From assembly GCF_900104045.1 (NCBI RefSeq), contig NZ_FNIN01000007.1, positions 1-64,000 on the forward strand: a stretch of 64,000 nucleotides of DNA. The letters run 5' to 3'. Shown in pieces: positions 41,951-48,295 of the stretch. Every line of letters begins with the position of its first letter. The first letter of the stretch is position 1. The DNA comes from Desulfonauticus submarinus. GTDB taxonomy: Bacteria; Desulfobacterota; Desulfovibrionia; Desulfovibrionales; Desulfonatronovibrionaceae. The notes beneath the pieces were generated by a model that worked only from the letters and a program-made list of their open reading frames with translations, was not told the DNA's origin and ran no database searches. A program made the translations under genes and the position numbers.

Positions 41951-42889
41951 TTATAAAGTGTTTTCTAAATTATTCCCAAACCATCTGGGCATATCTTTTA
42001 GAGAATAAACCATTTGTTCATTTTCAATGGCATTTTTAAGAAATTTTGGCAAAGTAAGAGCAGCAAAAAACATTTCTTCATCTAAAAATTTTAGAGTACC
42101 TTTTATTTTAGTGTGAATAATTTCTTTAATTTGTTTTTTATTTAGTGTTTTAAATTCTTTTAAAGAAACAATTGAGAATGCTAGAGGGGTTAAATATACT
42201 TGGCAAAAGGAGATACAGGCCTGAAAATACGGAAAAATAGTTTTTAATGTATTTGCTACTCTTGTAAAATAAAAATGGTCTGGAGGAGCAGCTGGTCCAG
42301 ACTGGATGCTTATAATGCCTTGAGGATGTAAAATATTTTTTAAACTGGAAAAGAATTCTTTAGTGAATAAAGCCATAGCTGGCCCATCATCTACAGGATC
42401 AGATAAATCGCAGATTATAAGATCCCATTTTTTAGATGTATTTTTAACAAAATCAAATGCATTTTCTATTAAAATAGTTGCTTTGGGATGTTCCAAAGAA
42501 TTTTGATTAAGTGTTTTAAAATGAGTCTTGCCACATTTGATAACCTCTTCATCAATATCTACAAGAGTAATATTTTCCACCTCTTTCCATTTCAAGGCTT
42601 CTCTTAATGCGCATCCATCTCCTCCCCCTAGAATAAGAATATTTCTAGGATTTCCATGAAAAATAGCAGGGACATGAACTAAGAGTTCATGATAAATAAA
42701 TTCATCTACCTCACTAATTTGACAAATATTGTCTAATAAAAGAACTTTGCCATATAATTTGGACTTAATAAGAGCAAGTTTTTGATATTTTGTTTTTTTT
42801 AATTCCAAAATTTCTTCTGCTGAGTGTAAAAAAATATCTCCACCCGTTAGTATTTCTGGGAAATAGTCTCTTAGTTGGCAACCTGACAT
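41951..42889 (-). CDS. speE: Spermidine synthase (polyamine aminopropyltransferase)
   Basis: A 312-residue enzyme transferring aminopropyl from decarboxylated SAM to putrescine. Motifs: YQKLALIKSKLYGKVLLLDN near 36, ISEVDEFIYHELLVHVPAI, the SAM-site ILILGGGDGCALRE near 84-97, and DLSDPVD near 160 with the catalytic Asp. It overlaps speD by 19 bases. Length slightly exceeds the usual 280-290 because of a C-terminal tail. Together with SpeD it makes spermidine. Confidence 0.93.
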   Translation of the reverse strand: MSGCQLRDYFPEILTGGDIFLHSAEEILELKKTKYQKLALIKSKLYGKVLLLDNICQISEVDEFIYHELLVHVPAIFHGNPRNILILGGGDGCALREALKWKEVENITLVDIDEEVIKCGKTHFKTLNQNSLEHPKATILIENAFDFVKNTSKKWDLIICDLSDPVDDGPAMALFTKEFFSSLKNILHPQGIISIQSGPAAPPDHFYFTRVANTLKTIFPYFQACISFCQVYLTPLAFSIVSLKEFKTLNKKQIKEIIHTKIKGTLKFLDEEMFFAALTLPKFLKNAIENEQMVYSLKDMPRWFGNNLENTL

Positions 42890-43287
42890 GGTTCGTATTC
42901 CTCATGTAACTTGTTGTAAATTTTTTCTTTCTTCACTTTATTCCCCCTAGGCAAAGTAATGAGGTCATAGTCTTCAGCTTGAAGAAATTCTACTAAAAAT
43001 TCACATGCTTTTTGAGGATCTGAAAATTCCCCACAGGTGAAGACATCAACCGCAGCGTATCCCAATTCTGGCCAAGTGTGGATAGAAATATGGGATTCTG
43101 CTAATAAACCTAAAGCAGTTACTCCCATAGGATGAAATTTATGGCTAGTGAGACTTAAAAGGGTTGACATAGATTGTTGAGAGGCTTGTTTGATAGCTTG
43201 TTTGATGATTTCTTCGTTGTCCAAAATAGAAAATGGACAGCCTTTTAGCTCAAGGACAAGATGAAGTCCACAGATCTTGTTTTTCAA
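42871..43287 (-). CDS. speD: S-adenosylmethionine decarboxylase proenzyme
   Basis: A 138-residue bacterial-type (class 1B) SAM decarboxylase precursor. The self-cleavage site is in LLAESHISIHTWPE: cleavage between Glu64 and Ser65 would make the pyruvoyl cofactor, with His70 conserved downstream. The start is TTG at 43287, 8 bases after AGGAGG; no better start exists in frame. The weak start codon, an upstream ORF and a structured leader suggest tight control. It overlaps speE by 19 bases, giving balanced synthesis of decarboxylated SAM. Confidence 0.93.
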   Translation of the reverse strand: MKNKICGLHLVLELKGCPFSILDNEEIIKQAIKQASQQSMSTLLSLTSHKFHPMGVTALGLLAESHISIHTWPELGYAAVDVFTCGEFSDPQKACEFLVEFLQAEDYDLITLPRGNKVKKEKIYNKLHEEYEPCQVAN

Positions 43288-43320
43288 TGGCTTTTCCTCC
43301 TTAAGTTATAGGTTTACTAC

Positions 43321-43386
43321 TTAGGTAGGTGCAAAACTTTCTCTTGGTAAATAGACAACACGTATTAACGGGTCGTCAGTACTCAT
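43321..43386 (-). CDS. Upstream ORF (21 residues) in the speD leader
   Basis: ATG at 43386-43384, TAA at 43323-43321. The peptide begins MSTDDPLIRVVYLPRESF and ends with Ala-Pro-Thr. A good Shine-Dalgarno, AAGGGG (43392-43397), lies 5 bases upstream. The stop is 33 bases above the speD start. It has mixed charge and a proline near the end, as in some regulatory nascent peptides. Coding is supported by RBS, start and position only; conservation is not testable here. Confidence 0.5.
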   Translation of the reverse strand: MSTDDPLIRVVYLPRESFAPT

Positions 43387-43416
43387 AAAAACCCCTTGGT
43401 TAAGAATTTATTTTCT

Positions 43417-43457
43417 CCCCTTTCCAAAAAAAGAAAGGGGGGTAGCCTAAAACCCCC
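43417..43457 (-). promoter_or_regulatory. Terminator-like hairpin with alternative hairpin in the speD leader (candidate attenuator)
   Basis: Read on the minus strand: hairpin 1 pairs 43457-43452 (GGGGGT) with 43443-43438 (ACCCCC) and is followed by CTTTCTTTTTTT, a typical intrinsic terminator. Hairpin 2 pairs CCCCTTTC (43440-43433) with GAAAGGGG (43424-43417) and shares bases 43438-43440 with hairpin 1, so the two compete. The G-tract of the upstream ORF's Shine-Dalgarno (43392-43397) could also pair with the C-tract. This resembles a transcription attenuator. Alternative: terminator of the ABC operon ending at 43652. Confidence 0.5.
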
Positions 43458-43468
43458 TGAATCAATTC

Positions 43469-43498
43469 AGTATTGAGAAAAAAAGACAAGATTGTCAA
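43469..43498 (-). promoter_or_regulatory. Candidate promoter of speD-speE
   Basis: On the minus strand TTGACA (43498-43493) and AATACT (43474-43469) with an 18-base spacer. The predicted start, near 43462, falls inside a short dyad CTGAAT..ATTCAG (43457-43470) and just before the terminator-like hairpin, so the hairpin would lie in the speD leader. Confidence 0.5.
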
Positions 43499-43651
43499 GT
43501 AGTTGCTTTTCTTCTATAGATGGTGTTTTAATTTTAATCAGTTAAAAAAAAGATGTTTGATTATTTAATATGGGAAAAGTTTTGTTTTCTAAAAGGGTAG
43601 TTAACAAGGTAAAAAATTAAAAAATATATTAAATCTATGTGAATTAATTGA

Positions 43652-44560
43652 TTATTCTTTTAAATAAGGAAGCCCTAGACTTTTGGGGAAATTTAGTTCG
43701 GATTTATATTTGTTTTTTATTAATATTAAAATAATAAGAGGTAAAATAAAGGGAAGCATTTTAAGAATATAAACAGGAACAATTTCTTTGCCAATGGCTT
43801 GGAAGTAAAATTGTAAAGCCATAAAAGATCCAAATAAAAATGCTCCCACAAAGGCTCTAAATGGTTTTAGTCCTGAAAATACTACCATAGCAATAGCAAT
43901 CCAACCTTGCCCACCACTTATGCCTTCTTTCCAACCTGGAGTATAGGCTAGAGATAGGTAAGAACCTCCAAGTCCAGTTAATGCTCCACCTATAATGGTT
44001 GCTATATATCTATACTTAAACACATTAAGGCCTGCTACATTACTAACTTTGGGATCTTCGCCAATAGCTTTAAGGTTTAAACCTAGAGGAGTATGATAAA
44101 GAATAAAATTGACAATAAAAAGTAAAATAAAACTTGCAACAACTATCCAGTTTAGTTCTTTTAAAATGATTCCAAAAGGATAATGCTCAAGTTCTGTAAA
44201 GCAAGGTAGAGAAATTGTTTGCAATCCAATAAAAGGTCGTCCTAGGAAACTACTAAGTCCTTCTCCTAAAATAGTAATTGCCAGTCCAGAAAGAACTTGG
44301 TTAGCGCTTAGATGGATAGAAAAAAAAGCATGGATTAAGGACATACTGCTTCCTACTATCATTGCTCCTGTAAATCCTATAATTAAACTGTGAGTATAAT
44401 AAGTTAATACAAATCCTGCGAGAGCAGATACAAGCATTATTCCTTCTAATCCAAGGTTTAAGATGCCACCTTTTTCAGTGATTATTTCTCCTAAAGAAGC
44501 TAAAAATACTGCTGGTATTGATTTTAGAGTTAGTGCTAAGATAAAATAAATATCATTCAT
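43652..44560 (-). CDS. Nucleoside-type ABC transporter permease 2
   Basis: A 302-residue membrane permease with about eight helices of the BPD_transp_2 family (as in RbsC, NupC-type and YufQ). Key stretch: GEIITEKGGILNLGLEGIML near 23-42, and GEDPKVSNVAGLNVFKYRYI near 183, the coupling region. It pairs with the other permease and the double ATPase. It overlaps that permease gene by 8 bases. BMP-type binding protein in the same cluster suggests purine or other nucleoside uptake. Confidence 0.88.
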   Translation of the reverse strand: MNDIYFILALTLKSIPAVFLASLGEIITEKGGILNLGLEGIMLVSALAGFVLTYYTHSLIIGFTGAMIVGSSMSLIHAFFSIHLSANQVLSGLAITILGEGLSSFLGRPFIGLQTISLPCFTELEHYPFGIILKELNWIVVASFILLFIVNFILYHTPLGLNLKAIGEDPKVSNVAGLNVFKYRYIATIIGGALTGLGGSYLSLAYTPGWKEGISGGQGWIAIAMVVFSGLKPFRAFVGAFLFGSFMALQFYFQAIGKEIVPVYILKMLPFILPLIILILIKNKYKSELNFPKSLGLPYLKE

Positions 44561-45614
44561 TTTTTTTGATCCATTTTAATTTATAATTGCTAAGAGTTAG
44601 TGCACCTAAGAAAGATAAAAGCATAAATCCTTCTAAAATTAGGGTGAAAGATGCTGGTATGTGTAGGTTAGTTTGAATACCTTCAGCACCTACTTTTATT
44701 ATACTGAGTAGAACACTTAAAATAGGAACTAGAAGAGGATTTTTTTGTGCTAAAAAGGCAATAAGAATACCATCATATCCATATCCAATACTTAAGCCTT
44801 GTTGAAGTCTTCTATGGAGACCTAAAACTTCTCCCATCCCAGCTAATCCTGCAATGCCTCCACTTATTAAAAAAGCAATTAGTAGTAATTTTTTTTGAGG
44901 AAAATGTGCGTATGTGGCAGCATTAGGATTTAGTCCACATACCTTAATTTTATACCCAAGAGGTGTTTTTTGGAAGAAAAGATAACCTAAAAAGCATAGT
45001 CCTAATCCAATAAATAGATTTAAACTAATTCTAGTTTGGAAAAATCTAGGTAGCCATGTGCTTACTGGTAGAATAGCTGTACCAGGAAATCCAAACCCCA
45101 TAGGATCTCTCAATGGTCCAAAATATAGGTGTTCCATAAAGATAAGAGCTACATAATTTAGAAGTAGTGAAGAAATAATTTCACTTATTTCCCATTTTAT
45201 TTTTAAAAATATGGGAATATATGCCCAAATAAATCCACCTATAAAACCTGCTAATATTACTATGGGCAAATGCATATAGATGGGAATATACTTAACCACA
45301 GTAAGTGCACAAATAGCTGAGCAGGTTCCTCCCATAATAAGCTGACCTTCTGCTCCAATATTCCATAGTCCTGCCTTAGCAGCGATTAAAACACTTAGAC
45401 CCGTAAGTATTAAAGGAGTTGATTTAACTAATACTTCTGAGAAGGAATAAAAGTCGCCTAAACTATTTTGCAAAATACCTGAATATATTTTCCAGGGATT
45501 TAAATGCAAAAGAGTGAAGATAATCGCTAGAATAAGAAAGGGTAAAGACATTAAAATTAAAAAAAGAAAAATTTTTTGTTTCAAGGAGAGATTACGTTTT
45601 TTTAAGATTAACAT
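44553..45614 (-). CDS. Nucleoside-type ABC transporter permease 1
   Basis: A 353-residue membrane permease of the same family as its neighbour, with about nine to ten helices. Motifs: SVLIAAKAGLWNIGAEGQLI near 77-96 and KVCGLNPNAATYAHFPQKKL near 228, the EAA-like loop for the ATPase. It starts behind AGGAAG and overlaps the ATPase gene by 7 bases. It makes a heterodimeric channel with the following permease. Confidence 0.88.
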   Translation of the reverse strand: MLILKKRNLSLKQKIFLFLILMSLPFLILAIIFTLLHLNPWKIYSGILQNSLGDFYSFSEVLVKSTPLILTGLSVLIAAKAGLWNIGAEGQLIMGGTCSAICALTVVKYIPIYMHLPIVILAGFIGGFIWAYIPIFLKIKWEISEIISSLLLNYVALIFMEHLYFGPLRDPMGFGFPGTAILPVSTWLPRFFQTRISLNLFIGLGLCFLGYLFFQKTPLGYKIKVCGLNPNAATYAHFPQKKLLLIAFLISGGIAGLAGMGEVLGLHRRLQQGLSIGYGYDGILIAFLAQKNPLLVPILSVLLSIIKVGAEGIQTNLHIPASFTLILEGFMLLSFLGALTLSNYKLKWIKKNE

Positions 45615-47125
45615 TTTAAACTTCCTGTCATGTAAAGACCTAGATTGGCAATATCTTTTGAGGAGGTAGGTGAAAAAGTTTTTACTATTTGTCCTTTATA
45701 GATGATGCCAATTTTATCAGCTAAAATAAGAGATTCTTGAATATCTCCAGAGATAAGTAAAATACTAGAATGTTTCTTTATTTGTATTAATTGTTTCCAT
45801 ATTTCTTGAGTAGAATTAATGTCTAATCCTTGAGTTGGGTGTTCTGCAATAATTACGGTTGGTTCTTTACTTAACTCTCTGCCTAGTATAAATTTTTGAA
45901 GATTTCCTCCTGAAAGATTAGAAGGGGTAGAGTTTATCCCATTGGGGGTCTTTATGTTGAATTCTTGAATAATTTTTTGTGTAAAAGTTTTAGCAATTTT
46001 CCATTTTATTTTAAGAGAATTTGAAAGTTCTTTGAGTCTAGTTAAAACAAAGTTAAAGTATAGACTTTTCTCTTCTATACAGGCTAAATTATTGCGATCT
46101 TCAGGAATATATACTATTTTAGTAGGATAGTTATTTATCCATTGTGAGGCATTGTATTTTTTATCGAAAATAATTTCTCCTTTAAATTCTTGTAATCCGC
46201 CAAGCACTTTGGCTAGAACTTCTTGTCCATTTCCAGATATTCCCAAAAGAACAAAGATTTCACCTTGTTTTAATTTTAAATTAATATTTTTAAGTAAAAC
46301 TTGTCCATTTTGATTTACTTGAATATTATTTAATTGTAATATACTCTTTTTACTTATATTTTTTGTTTTATGTGTGTCAAAATTATTAATAATATTAAAC
46401 TCTTTCCCTATCATTAGGGAGGCTAGTTCTAATTTAGATTTTATTTTTGTTTTAGGTGTTGTGGATACTATTTTACCTTTTTGCATAACAGTAATAGTAT
46501 CTGCTATTTCTAATACTTCTTCTAATTTATGAGAGATGAAGAGAATAGTGTGTCCATTTTGGCGTAATGATAGCAGTATTTTAAAAAAAGGTTTAATCTC
46601 TTGTGGGGTTAATACAGATGTTGGTTCATCAAATATAAGAATTTTACTATTTTTATAAAGAAGTTTTAATATTTCTACTTGTTGTTTTTGCCCCATTGAA
46701 AGGTTATGTATTCGTTCTTCTGGATTAATATTTAAATTGAATTGACATAGAATAGAGTTAATCCGAGTTATTATTTGTTTTTTGTTCCATACAAAATTAT
46801 TTTCCAGAGTTCCTAATGCAATATTCTGCCATACAGTGAAATTTTCTATAAGCATAAATTTTTGATGTACCATGCCTATTCCATATTTTTGGGCATGGGC
46901 TGGATTTGTGAAAAGAATTTTTTTATTTTTTATTAATATTTCTCCTGAATCAGGTAGAATATTACCAGAAATAATAGACATTAAGGTAGATTTGCCAGCA
47001 CCATTTTCTCCTAAGATAGCATGAATTTGTTTTTGTTTTATATTAAGAGAAACGTTTTTAAGGGCTTTAAAATCACCAAAGGATTTGTTGATGTTTTTAA
47101 GTGTTAAAATAATAGAGTTGCTCAC
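45608..47125 (-). CDS. Nucleoside-type ABC transporter ATPase (two ABC domains)
   Basis: A 505-residue protein with two fused ABC domains, as in RbsA, MglA and YufO. Domain 1 has Walker A GENGAGKST (38-46), LSMGQKQQVEILK signature and LIFDEPTSVLT. Domain 2 has the degenerate Walker-like GISGNGQEV and LSGGNLQKFILGRELS signature, typical of this subfamily, where only one site hydrolyses ATP. The start is GTG at 47125 and lacks a visible Shine-Dalgarno, which with the hairpin upstream may limit its expression relative to the binding protein. Confidence 0.9.
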   Translation of the reverse strand: MSNSIILTLKNINKSFGDFKALKNVSLNIKQKQIHAILGENGAGKSTLMSIISGNILPDSGEILIKNKKILFTNPAHAQKYGIGMVHQKFMLIENFTVWQNIALGTLENNFVWNKKQIITRINSILCQFNLNINPEERIHNLSMGQKQQVEILKLLYKNSKILIFDEPTSVLTPQEIKPFFKILLSLRQNGHTILFISHKLEEVLEIADTITVMQKGKIVSTTPKTKIKSKLELASLMIGKEFNIINNFDTHKTKNISKKSILQLNNIQVNQNGQVLLKNINLKLKQGEIFVLLGISGNGQEVLAKVLGGLQEFKGEIIFDKKYNASQWINNYPTKIVYIPEDRNNLACIEEKSLYFNFVLTRLKELSNSLKIKWKIAKTFTQKIIQEFNIKTPNGINSTPSNLSGGNLQKFILGRELSKEPTVIIAEHPTQGLDINSTQEIWKQLIQIKKHSSILLISGDIQESLILADKIGIIYKGQIVKTFSPTSSKDIANLGLYMTGSLKC

Positions 47126-47146
47126 TGGTTAAAGTTAAATTTAAAG

Positions 47147-47171
47147 AGGAGAGGTTGCTAAGGCCTCTCCT
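47147..47171. terminator. Hairpin between the binding-protein gene and the ABC ATPase gene
   Basis: Arms AGGAGAGG (47147-47154) and CCTCTCCT (47164-47171), loop of 9. Going leftward, which is the direction of the operon, it is followed only by TTTAAATTTAAC, a poor T-run. It probably causes partial termination or protects the 3' end of the binding-protein mRNA, a common way to make more binding protein than transporter. Confidence 0.65.
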
Positions 47172-47203
47172 TTTTTTAATTTTTAATGTTTAGAGTTTTT
47201 TTA

Positions 47204-48295
47204 TTAATCAGGGATATTCCCTACTACTCCTTTAACCAGCCAGCGCATGGTCAGAAGTTCTTTGTCTGTTAATTTTTCACCTGGTTTTACTCGTAATTTG
47301 CCACTTTGATCATAAATTGGTCCTACAAAGACATTATCTTCACCGTTTTTAAATTTTTCTAACTCTTTTAATACCTTTTTTTGCACGGATTTAGGCACAG
47401 AGGCATTAAATGAACTTAATTTAATCATGTTTTGCTCAAAACCAGCCCAATAGGGTGTAGGTTTCCATGTTCCAGCCTGAACTTCTTTAACTACTTTTAC
47501 AAAAAAAGGTCCCCAATTCCAAAGAGTAGACACCAAGGCACAAGATGCTCCGTATTTAGCTGCATCAGCTCCATAACCGATAGCAGGAACTCCTTTTTTA
47601 CAAGCTGCCAAACTACTATCCGGAGTGTCTGCCATTTGTCTTATAAGAGTGCATCCTCTTGAAATAAGGGTTTCTGCAAGGGTTGTTTCATTAATAGGAT
47701 CTCTCCATGCTTTTAACCATACCACAGTATTTACTTTATTGGGGTTAAAAGAATGCTTACCTTCTTTTAATCCTTTAATAAGACCAAGGGTAAAGGCATT
47801 AACTCCTCTGATTGGTTCAGGAATGGGGTTTGTAGCAACTGTTCCCACATGTTTATATCCCATAAGTCCAGCCATATATCCTGCTAAATAGTCTGCTTGA
47901 TACATTCTTGCAAAATAGTTTCCCATGTTAGGAGCAGTTTTGTAACCTGCACAGTGTTCGAAGACAACTTTTGGAAAATCTTGAGCTACCATGAGCATTG
48001 GATCCATATGTTCAAATGTAGTGCCAAATATTATATCATAACCTTGACGGGCATATTTTCTAAAAACCCGTTCTGCATCAGCAGCTAAAACTTTCTCAGT
48101 ATAACTAATCTCTACTTGGTCTCCCATTTTTTCCTTAAGATATTTTATCCCATTATATGCTGCAGTAGTCCAGCCCATATCATCAATGGTCCATAAAAGA
48201 GCAAAAGCAACTTTTATTTTTTTCTTTGCGTTTGCTGGCTGAGAAATACTAATTACCATTAGTAAAGATATGATTAAAAGTAGAATCTTTTTCAT
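47204..48295 (-). CDS. BMP-family substrate-binding protein of the ABC transporter
   Basis: A 363-residue exported protein with signal peptide (about 1-23, ending PANA, no lipobox Cys, so soluble periplasmic). The body fits the basic membrane protein (BMP/Med/PnrA) family: KKKIKVAFALLWTIDDMGWT, GYDIIFGTTFEHMDPMLMVA and GYMAGLMGYKHVGTVATNPI. BMP proteins bind purine nucleosides or related ligands, which fits the nucleoside-type permeases downstream. It starts about 7 bases after AAAAAGGGGGGCG. It is the first gene of the four-gene transporter operon. Confidence 0.9.
   Translation of the reverse strand: MKKILLLIISLLMVISISQPANAKKKIKVAFALLWTIDDMGWTTAAYNGIKYLKEKMGDQVEISYTEKVLAADAERVFRKYARQGYDIIFGTTFEHMDPMLMVAQDFPKVVFEHCAGYKTAPNMGNYFARMYQADYLAGYMAGLMGYKHVGTVATNPIPEPIRGVNAFTLGLIKGLKEGKHSFNPNKVNTVVWLKAWRDPINETTLAETLISRGCTLIRQMADTPDSSLAACKKGVPAIGYGADAAKYGASCALVSTLWNWGPFFVKVVKEVQAGTWKPTPYWAGFEQNMIKLSSFNASVPKSVQKKVLKELEKFKNGEDNVFVGPIYDQSGKLRVKPGEKLTDKELLTMRWLVKGVVGNIPD

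Follow-up and report, generated by a model that had tools for sequence, protein, structure and literature searches.

Does the short open reading frame upstream of speD in Desulfonauticus submarinus (uORF) encode a leader peptide that regulates speD, and if so, is speD controlled at a hairpin in its leader or at translation? SpeD, the S-adenosylmethionine (AdoMet) decarboxylase, catalyzes the step that commits many organisms to making spermidine, and in eukaryotes the same enzyme activity is controlled through a uORF peptide. Known examples of polyamine-gene leader peptides in E. coli are SpeFL (speF) and MdtU (mdtJI) (PMC7815308), and some Gram-positive spermidine genes carry a SAM-I-like spermidine riboswitch in front (PMC10853860). 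We found no leader peptide of a bacterial speD described in the open-access papers searched, in line with the remark, made in the original prediction for this locus, that none was known. That prediction, drawn from a 64,000-nucleotide stretch of D. submarinus DNA (the window), read the speD leader as a ribosome-controlled attenuator. Here we analyze this leader by comparison with related genomes.

Results

The speD locus and its short upstream ORF

In the window, speD lies on the minus strand (42871..43287) and starts with TTG at 43287. A profile search identified its product as an AdoMet decarboxylase (TIGR03330; score 131.8 bits, cut-off 75.65), and solved AdoMetDC structures in the PDB match it at ~1e-29. 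The 3' end of speD is overlapped by speE (41951..42889, minus strand), whose best NCBIfam matches are polyamine aminopropyltransferase/spermidine synthase models, with scores slightly below the curated cut-off. Upstream of speD is a BMP-type ABC transporter operon (43652-48295, minus strand), for which the nearest NCBIfam models are those of a "putative B6 ABC transporter," the scores being far below the cut-offs. The uORF (43321..43386, minus strand) measures 66 bases, comprises 21 codons plus TAA, and encodes MSTDDPLIRVVYLPRESFAPT; its stop codon begins 36 bases 5' of the speD TTG. By direct reading, a Shine-Dalgarno sequence (SD), AAGGGG (43392..43397, minus strand), stands five bases before the uORF ATG, and speD has its own SD, AAGGAGG (43296..43302, minus strand). 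The promoter candidate, dyad, two hairpins, uORF, SDs and TTG start that had been predicted are all present on the minus strand where they had been placed.

We compared the window with its two nearest GTDB relatives, both Desulfonauticus sp. (G001 and G002). At the same place, all three genomes carry an SD-led ORF of exactly 21 codons (MSTDDPLIRVVYLPRESFAPT, MSSDEPLIKEKVLVPESMAPT and MSSDDPLKGIIYLPKESLAPT); in both relatives its stop begins 33-34 bases before speD, and its SD reads AGGGG in G002 and AGAGG in G001. The two ends of the peptide are kept in all three: MS[ST]D[DE]PL at the start (MSTDDP in the window, 43369..43386, minus strand) and ESxAPT directly before the stop (ESFAPT in the window, 43321..43341 including the stop, minus strand). 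The flanking sequence contains indels and the uORF has none. The last codons differ synonymously (GCA CCT ACC TAA, GCA CCT ACT TAG and GCT CCA ACG TAG), and the C-terminal pattern common to the three is GAA AGT NNN GCN CCN ACN TAR, with varied third positions. When substitutions in equal number were placed at random, the frame stayed open with at least the observed identity of the peptides in few trials (P = 0.0012, 0.030 and 0.00015 in the pairwise comparisons, which share sequences and are therefore not independent). Since it is conserved in the relatives, the uORF stands well above chance. Codon-level conservation of the 21-residue peptide, proposed as a check in the original prediction, is thus present in all three Desulfonauticus genomes, and the claim of an SD-led speD leader ORF holds.

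The genes further upstream of speD differ among the three genomes (ABC transporter, lipoprotein-like and iron-hydrogenase-like, from translations read by eye) while the leader stays, so speD and its leader form a conserved unit. This particular peptide was found in three genomes only, which represent all the Desulfonauticus species sequenced: a scan of genome contigs returned the same two relatives, and the other genera of the family that were examined gave no SpeD match. Searches of the peptide against Pfam and NCBIfam gave no match, and hence no homology to a described leader peptide. It has two features by which leader peptides are recognized, namely a short SD-led ORF directly 5' of a gene and, across three genomes, conservation at the peptide level. 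Judged from these comparisons, the uORF very probably encodes a conserved cis-acting leader peptide of speD. Its status as a conserved, lineage-specific coding leader is well supported, and the peptide is probably a regulator of speD.

Leader ORFs at other speD loci

For a wider view, 112 speD upstream regions were collected, and SD-led ATG ORFs 15-30 codons long, with an end 15-60 bases before speD, were counted against an expectation from base-shuffled sequence. Within the Desulfovibrionales they occur at 12 of 24 speD loci (1.0 expected), these loci not being independent and falling into four or more groups that differ in peptide. Elsewhere in the phylum the count is near chance (4 of 88 loci, ~4.9 expected). 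One group is the Desulfonauticus type described above. Another is genus g52, six genomes (L012, L014-L018) with a 21-codon uORF, MCLVEGGANGPARKARRCFGH and variants, that contains tandem AGG AGG codons and whose ribosome site, ACCAAGGGGG, resembles that of the window. The conserved AGG AGG of g52 lies at the uORF end inside AGGAGGT, in GC-rich genomes, where it is a rare arginine pair and SD-like at once. A third group joins the uORF of L011 (MDVDPYSRSPLGGVFDPGGEPRH) with a GTG-started ORF in L019 (MDVDSPSPRRVSAGPIFKGVILPRT). The fourth is family f2 (L005, L007, L008), with a distant SpeD and a leader ORF ending in LTFNFY before the stop. The f2 ORF has 22 codons, lies ~85 bases before speD and is unlike the Desulfonauticus peptide; in L007 its frame is broken at a nine-A run, by sequence error or slippage.

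A SpeD tree, which carries a long-branch warning and leaves the exact placement of L019 unsure, puts the Desulfonauticus, g52 and L011/L019 groups in one clade of 13 members (support 95/87), of which 11, including L019 with its GTG start, have the uORF. Conservation runs right up to the stop within Desulfonauticus (ESxAPT), within f2 (LTFNFY) and within g52 (ARRxFG[HR]). Two further candidates were set aside: MFAATRCNLTPELLAPE, found before one L050 speD and ending similarly, was taken as chance, the relatives of L050 being without it, and an "LPETY"-like frame shared by L046, L055 and L070 is likely a promoter.

Hairpins of the leader

A promoter candidate, TTGACA-18-AATACT (43498-43493 and 43474-43469, minus strand), matches at 10 of 12 positions; in the kilobase there are 6 promoter-like sites against 3.9 expected. 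CTTGACA also stands before the uORF in the relatives, at 111 bases in G002 and 160 bases in G001. Near the predicted transcription start is a dyad, CTGAATTGATTCAG (43470-43457, minus strand). Each genus member has a short dyad there, the sequences being unlike (CTGAATTGATTCAG, TTAAACTGAAGTTTAA, CTCTCTAGAGAG); it lies ~175 bases before speD in L003 and ~220 bases in L004. Downstream follows a terminator-like hairpin, GGGGGTTTTAGGCTACCCCC (43457-43438, minus strand; GGGGG..CCCCC, -10.8 kcal/mol), with the T-run CTTTCTTTTTTT. In an alternative hairpin found by folding, CCCCTTTCT (43440-43432) forms nine pairs with GGAAAGGGG (43425-43417, both minus strand; -14.1 kcal/mol), sharing three C residues with the terminator-like one. 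The overall folding of the leader has z = -1.8.

Each of the three genus members has a hairpin with a T-run between the promoter candidate and the uORF. This hairpin is equalled by 10% of dinucleotide shuffles in the window, 21% in G002 and 1% in G001 (p = 0.10, 0.21 and 0.01; Fisher ~0.01). Strong examples are also found in two of the three f2 leaders (L007, p 0.01; L008, p 0.003), and none was scored in the third, L005. The sequence of the terminator-like hairpin is not conserved among the genus members, nor is the alternative hairpin conserved in G001. The genus comparison gave no conserved mutually exclusive stems, in a consensus folding that carries little weight, having three sequences only.

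These data argue against the ribosome-controlled attenuator of the original prediction. Its hairpin (43457-43438) precedes the uORF (43386-43321), so termination is decided before the uORF is transcribed and ribosomes on the uORF cannot control it. The arrangement is not that of a trp-type attenuator either, the terminator being neither downstream of the leader ORF nor overlapping it. The alternative hairpin forms only after polymerase passes the first hairpin. For the suggested interaction between the uORF SD and the C-tract of the hairpin, energies of -9.9, -9.3 and -13.4 kcal/mol are no better than in shuffles (p = 0.61 for the window, 0.41 and 0.04; combined 0.17). It had also been considered that the hairpin might simply terminate transcription of the upstream ABC operon. 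That reading looks unlikely, given that the two other species have different genes upstream but keep the leader. What stands of the earlier interpretation is the conserved speD leader ORF; control of termination at the hairpin by ribosomes does not. The leader may still include a terminator or pause hairpin close to the promoter, working separately from the uORF.

The two ends of the uORF

In the window, the speD SD is predicted to pair with the last uORF codons, CCT ACC, with a probability of 0.95, a value equalled by 2% of synonymous recodings. Because of this pairing, a ribosome that completes the uORF should uncover speD in this species. The predicted probability falls to a weaker 0.29 in G001 and to 0.01, no pairing, in G002, and we set the pairing aside as a conserved switch, since only the window has it in strong form.

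At the other end, all three Desulfonauticus uORFs begin with MSxD[DE]P. Of 285 background proteins encoded at the collected loci, 2 (0.7%) have [DE]P among residues 2-8, a comparison to be read knowing that the background sets are small (47 and 285 proteins) and that the motif was noticed after the sequences were seen. An acidic/proline start recurs in otherwise dissimilar ORFs of L011 (MDVDP), L019 (MDVDSP) and L013 (MPSDP), the last of which extends past the speD start and was excluded from the uORF count. The g52 leader ORFs of all six genomes are without it.

Discussion

Based on these comparisons, we propose a mechanism for the control of speD by its leader peptide. The resemblance of the acidic/proline cluster to the ribosome-destabilizing motif of MgtL and MgtQ is new here. 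In E. coli MgtL, the sequence EPDP causes ribosome drop-off at low Mg2+ (PMC11282234), and in Salmonella MgtQ, Asp2 and Glu5 lower the translation of MgtQ itself and increase mgtB translation (PMC8092293). Polyamines can reportedly take the place of Mg2+, and levels of both are co-regulated through mechanisms not yet identified (PMC12421838); a cation-sensitive speD leader would therefore be physiologically sensible. In our scheme, the uORF would be transcribed with speD-speE from its own promoter, and ribosomes would load at AAGGGG and read the 21-residue peptide. The MSxD[DE]P start may make the young ribosome complex fragile, like EPDP of MgtL, and whether a ribosome drops off early or reaches the stop would be set by the stabilizing cations Mg2+ and polyamines. 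Ribosomes arriving at the ESxAPT stop, 33-36 bases before speD, would then change how accessible the speD start is; in the window, a ribosome finishing the uORF would separate the speD SD from CCT ACC. Translation of the uORF, cation sensing and the direction of control are parts that we infer. In the window, loss of ribosomes early in the uORF when polyamine is low would keep the speD SD paired, which is the wrong sign for simple feedback.

Our confidence differs among the parts of this proposal. That control is exerted at translation rather than at the hairpin seems reasonably probable to us, and the whole, a cis-acting, cation-dependent leader peptide that gates speD translation, we give about an even chance. 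The acidic/proline start as the sensor, a role proposed by analogy, is a tentative assignment that falls somewhat short of even. More broadly, speD leaders of the Desulfovibrionales could measure the total of polyamine and Mg2+ through ribosome survival at such a start, a generalization that is possible and rather doubtful.

Other readings have to be weighed against this one. If the uORF were incidental or separate, the promoter-proximal hairpin might by itself attenuate transcription, which was the core idea of the original prediction. The recurrence of a hairpin with a T-run in the three genus members and in L007 and L008 speaks for this, as does a large hairpin with a T-run that precedes a mini-ORF in families f41 and f74. 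The hairpin nevertheless lies upstream of the uORF, one shuffle in ten equals it in the window, L005 scored none, the SD/C-tract pairing is at chance, and we found neither a sensor domain nor an Rfam aptamer match for a known riboswitch in the leader; we regard such attenuation as unlikely. A stronger case can be made from the other end of the peptide. Nascent ESxAPT could stall the ribosome at the stop in the presence of a polyamine or precursor, as SpeFL and TnaC do by inhibition of release (PMC8429421), with ornithine for SpeFL and spermidine for MdtU as precedents (PMC7815308). The ribosome so stalled in Desulfonauticus, 36-39 bases before speD, would open the speD SD; in f2, where the stop is 18 bases before speD, it would block the SD. 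The conservation of residues up to the stop in Desulfonauticus, f2 and g52 would fit such an arrest. Yet it leaves the conserved acidic/proline start unexplained, and the three clades have no C-terminal motif in common. To our knowledge, the ESxAPT end resembles no known arrest motif. We hold arrest at the stop to be fairly unlikely; it can coexist with the cation-dependent mechanism.

Two further readings concern the peptide itself. Ribosomes finishing the uORF could simply open the speD start or reinitiate there, whatever the peptide sequence, and such plain coupling would suit the short gap, the SDs on both ORFs and, in the window, a speD SD paired with the final codons of the uORF. It does not suit a peptide whose two ends are conserved through synonymous changes, and a sequestering structure is not conserved, so there is little likelihood that coupling is all there is. 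The uORF might also encode a small protein acting in trans, for example on SpeD, as far as a conserved peptide, an SD and a constant length go. Its position directly before speD in all three genomes and the unrelated peptides at the same place in other speD clades oppose this. The only further C-terminal pattern match in the window genome, antisense inside a peptidase gene, was rejected as a second copy, and we consider a trans-acting product very unlikely.

The cation-dependent leader that we favor has partial counterparts in known systems. Like the uORF, MgtL (mgtA, enterobacteria) is a short leader ORF with an early acidic/proline cluster before a cation-homeostasis gene. It differs in controlling a Mg2+ transporter via a Rho-dependent terminator; the two have no sequence homology beyond the motif, and destabilization by the uORF is putative. 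MgtQ (mgtB, Salmonella) is likewise a short ORF with acidic residues near the start, immediately preceding the gene it regulates, and it acts at translation through ribosome-binding-site access, the level proposed here, whereas sequence, gene and RNA structure differ. SpeFL (speF, gamma-proteobacteria) also precedes a polyamine-biosynthesis gene and has a conserved end at the stop, but it is an unrelated peptide that senses ornithine, and speF encodes ornithine decarboxylase, not SpeD. In MdtU (mdtJI, E. coli), which is tied to spermidine, the C-terminus is likewise the most conserved part; it has 34 codons, however, belongs to an exporter gene, is Rho-dependent and stops 106 nt upstream. The spermidine riboswitch, a SAM-I variant, exemplifies bacterial leader control of spermidine genes, yet it is a structured aptamer of Gram-positives, and no aptamer was detected in the speD leader with the Rfam models. 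The MAGDIS uORF of the eukaryotic AdoMetDC mRNA (AMD1) sits on the message for the same enzyme activity; unlike the speD uORF, it has six codons and works by eukaryotic termination, and the two are not homologous. If our proposal is true, bacteria and eukaryotes would independently have placed a peptide-based ribosome sensor on AdoMetDC, and speD would be the first polyamine-biosynthesis gene with an MgtL-like sensor. It would be a candidate for a mechanism coupling polyamine and Mg2+ levels, and the question of their balance could then be tested on a single leader by altering a few codons.

Of additional note, another kind of speD leader was seen in families f74 and f41. All 12 loci concerned (L126-L133, L041, L042, L048, L049) contain an ATG-ACN-TGA mini-ORF (Met-Thr-stop, with ACG, ACA or ACC) with an AAGG-type SD, ~20 bases before speD. 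The members scanned gave no Rfam match. The mini-ORF lies downstream of a conserved hairpin, CCTCC[AG]TTTATGG...CCATGAA..GGAGG, followed by a T-run, and from its sequence this leader is a candidate speD attenuator combined with a minimal uORF.
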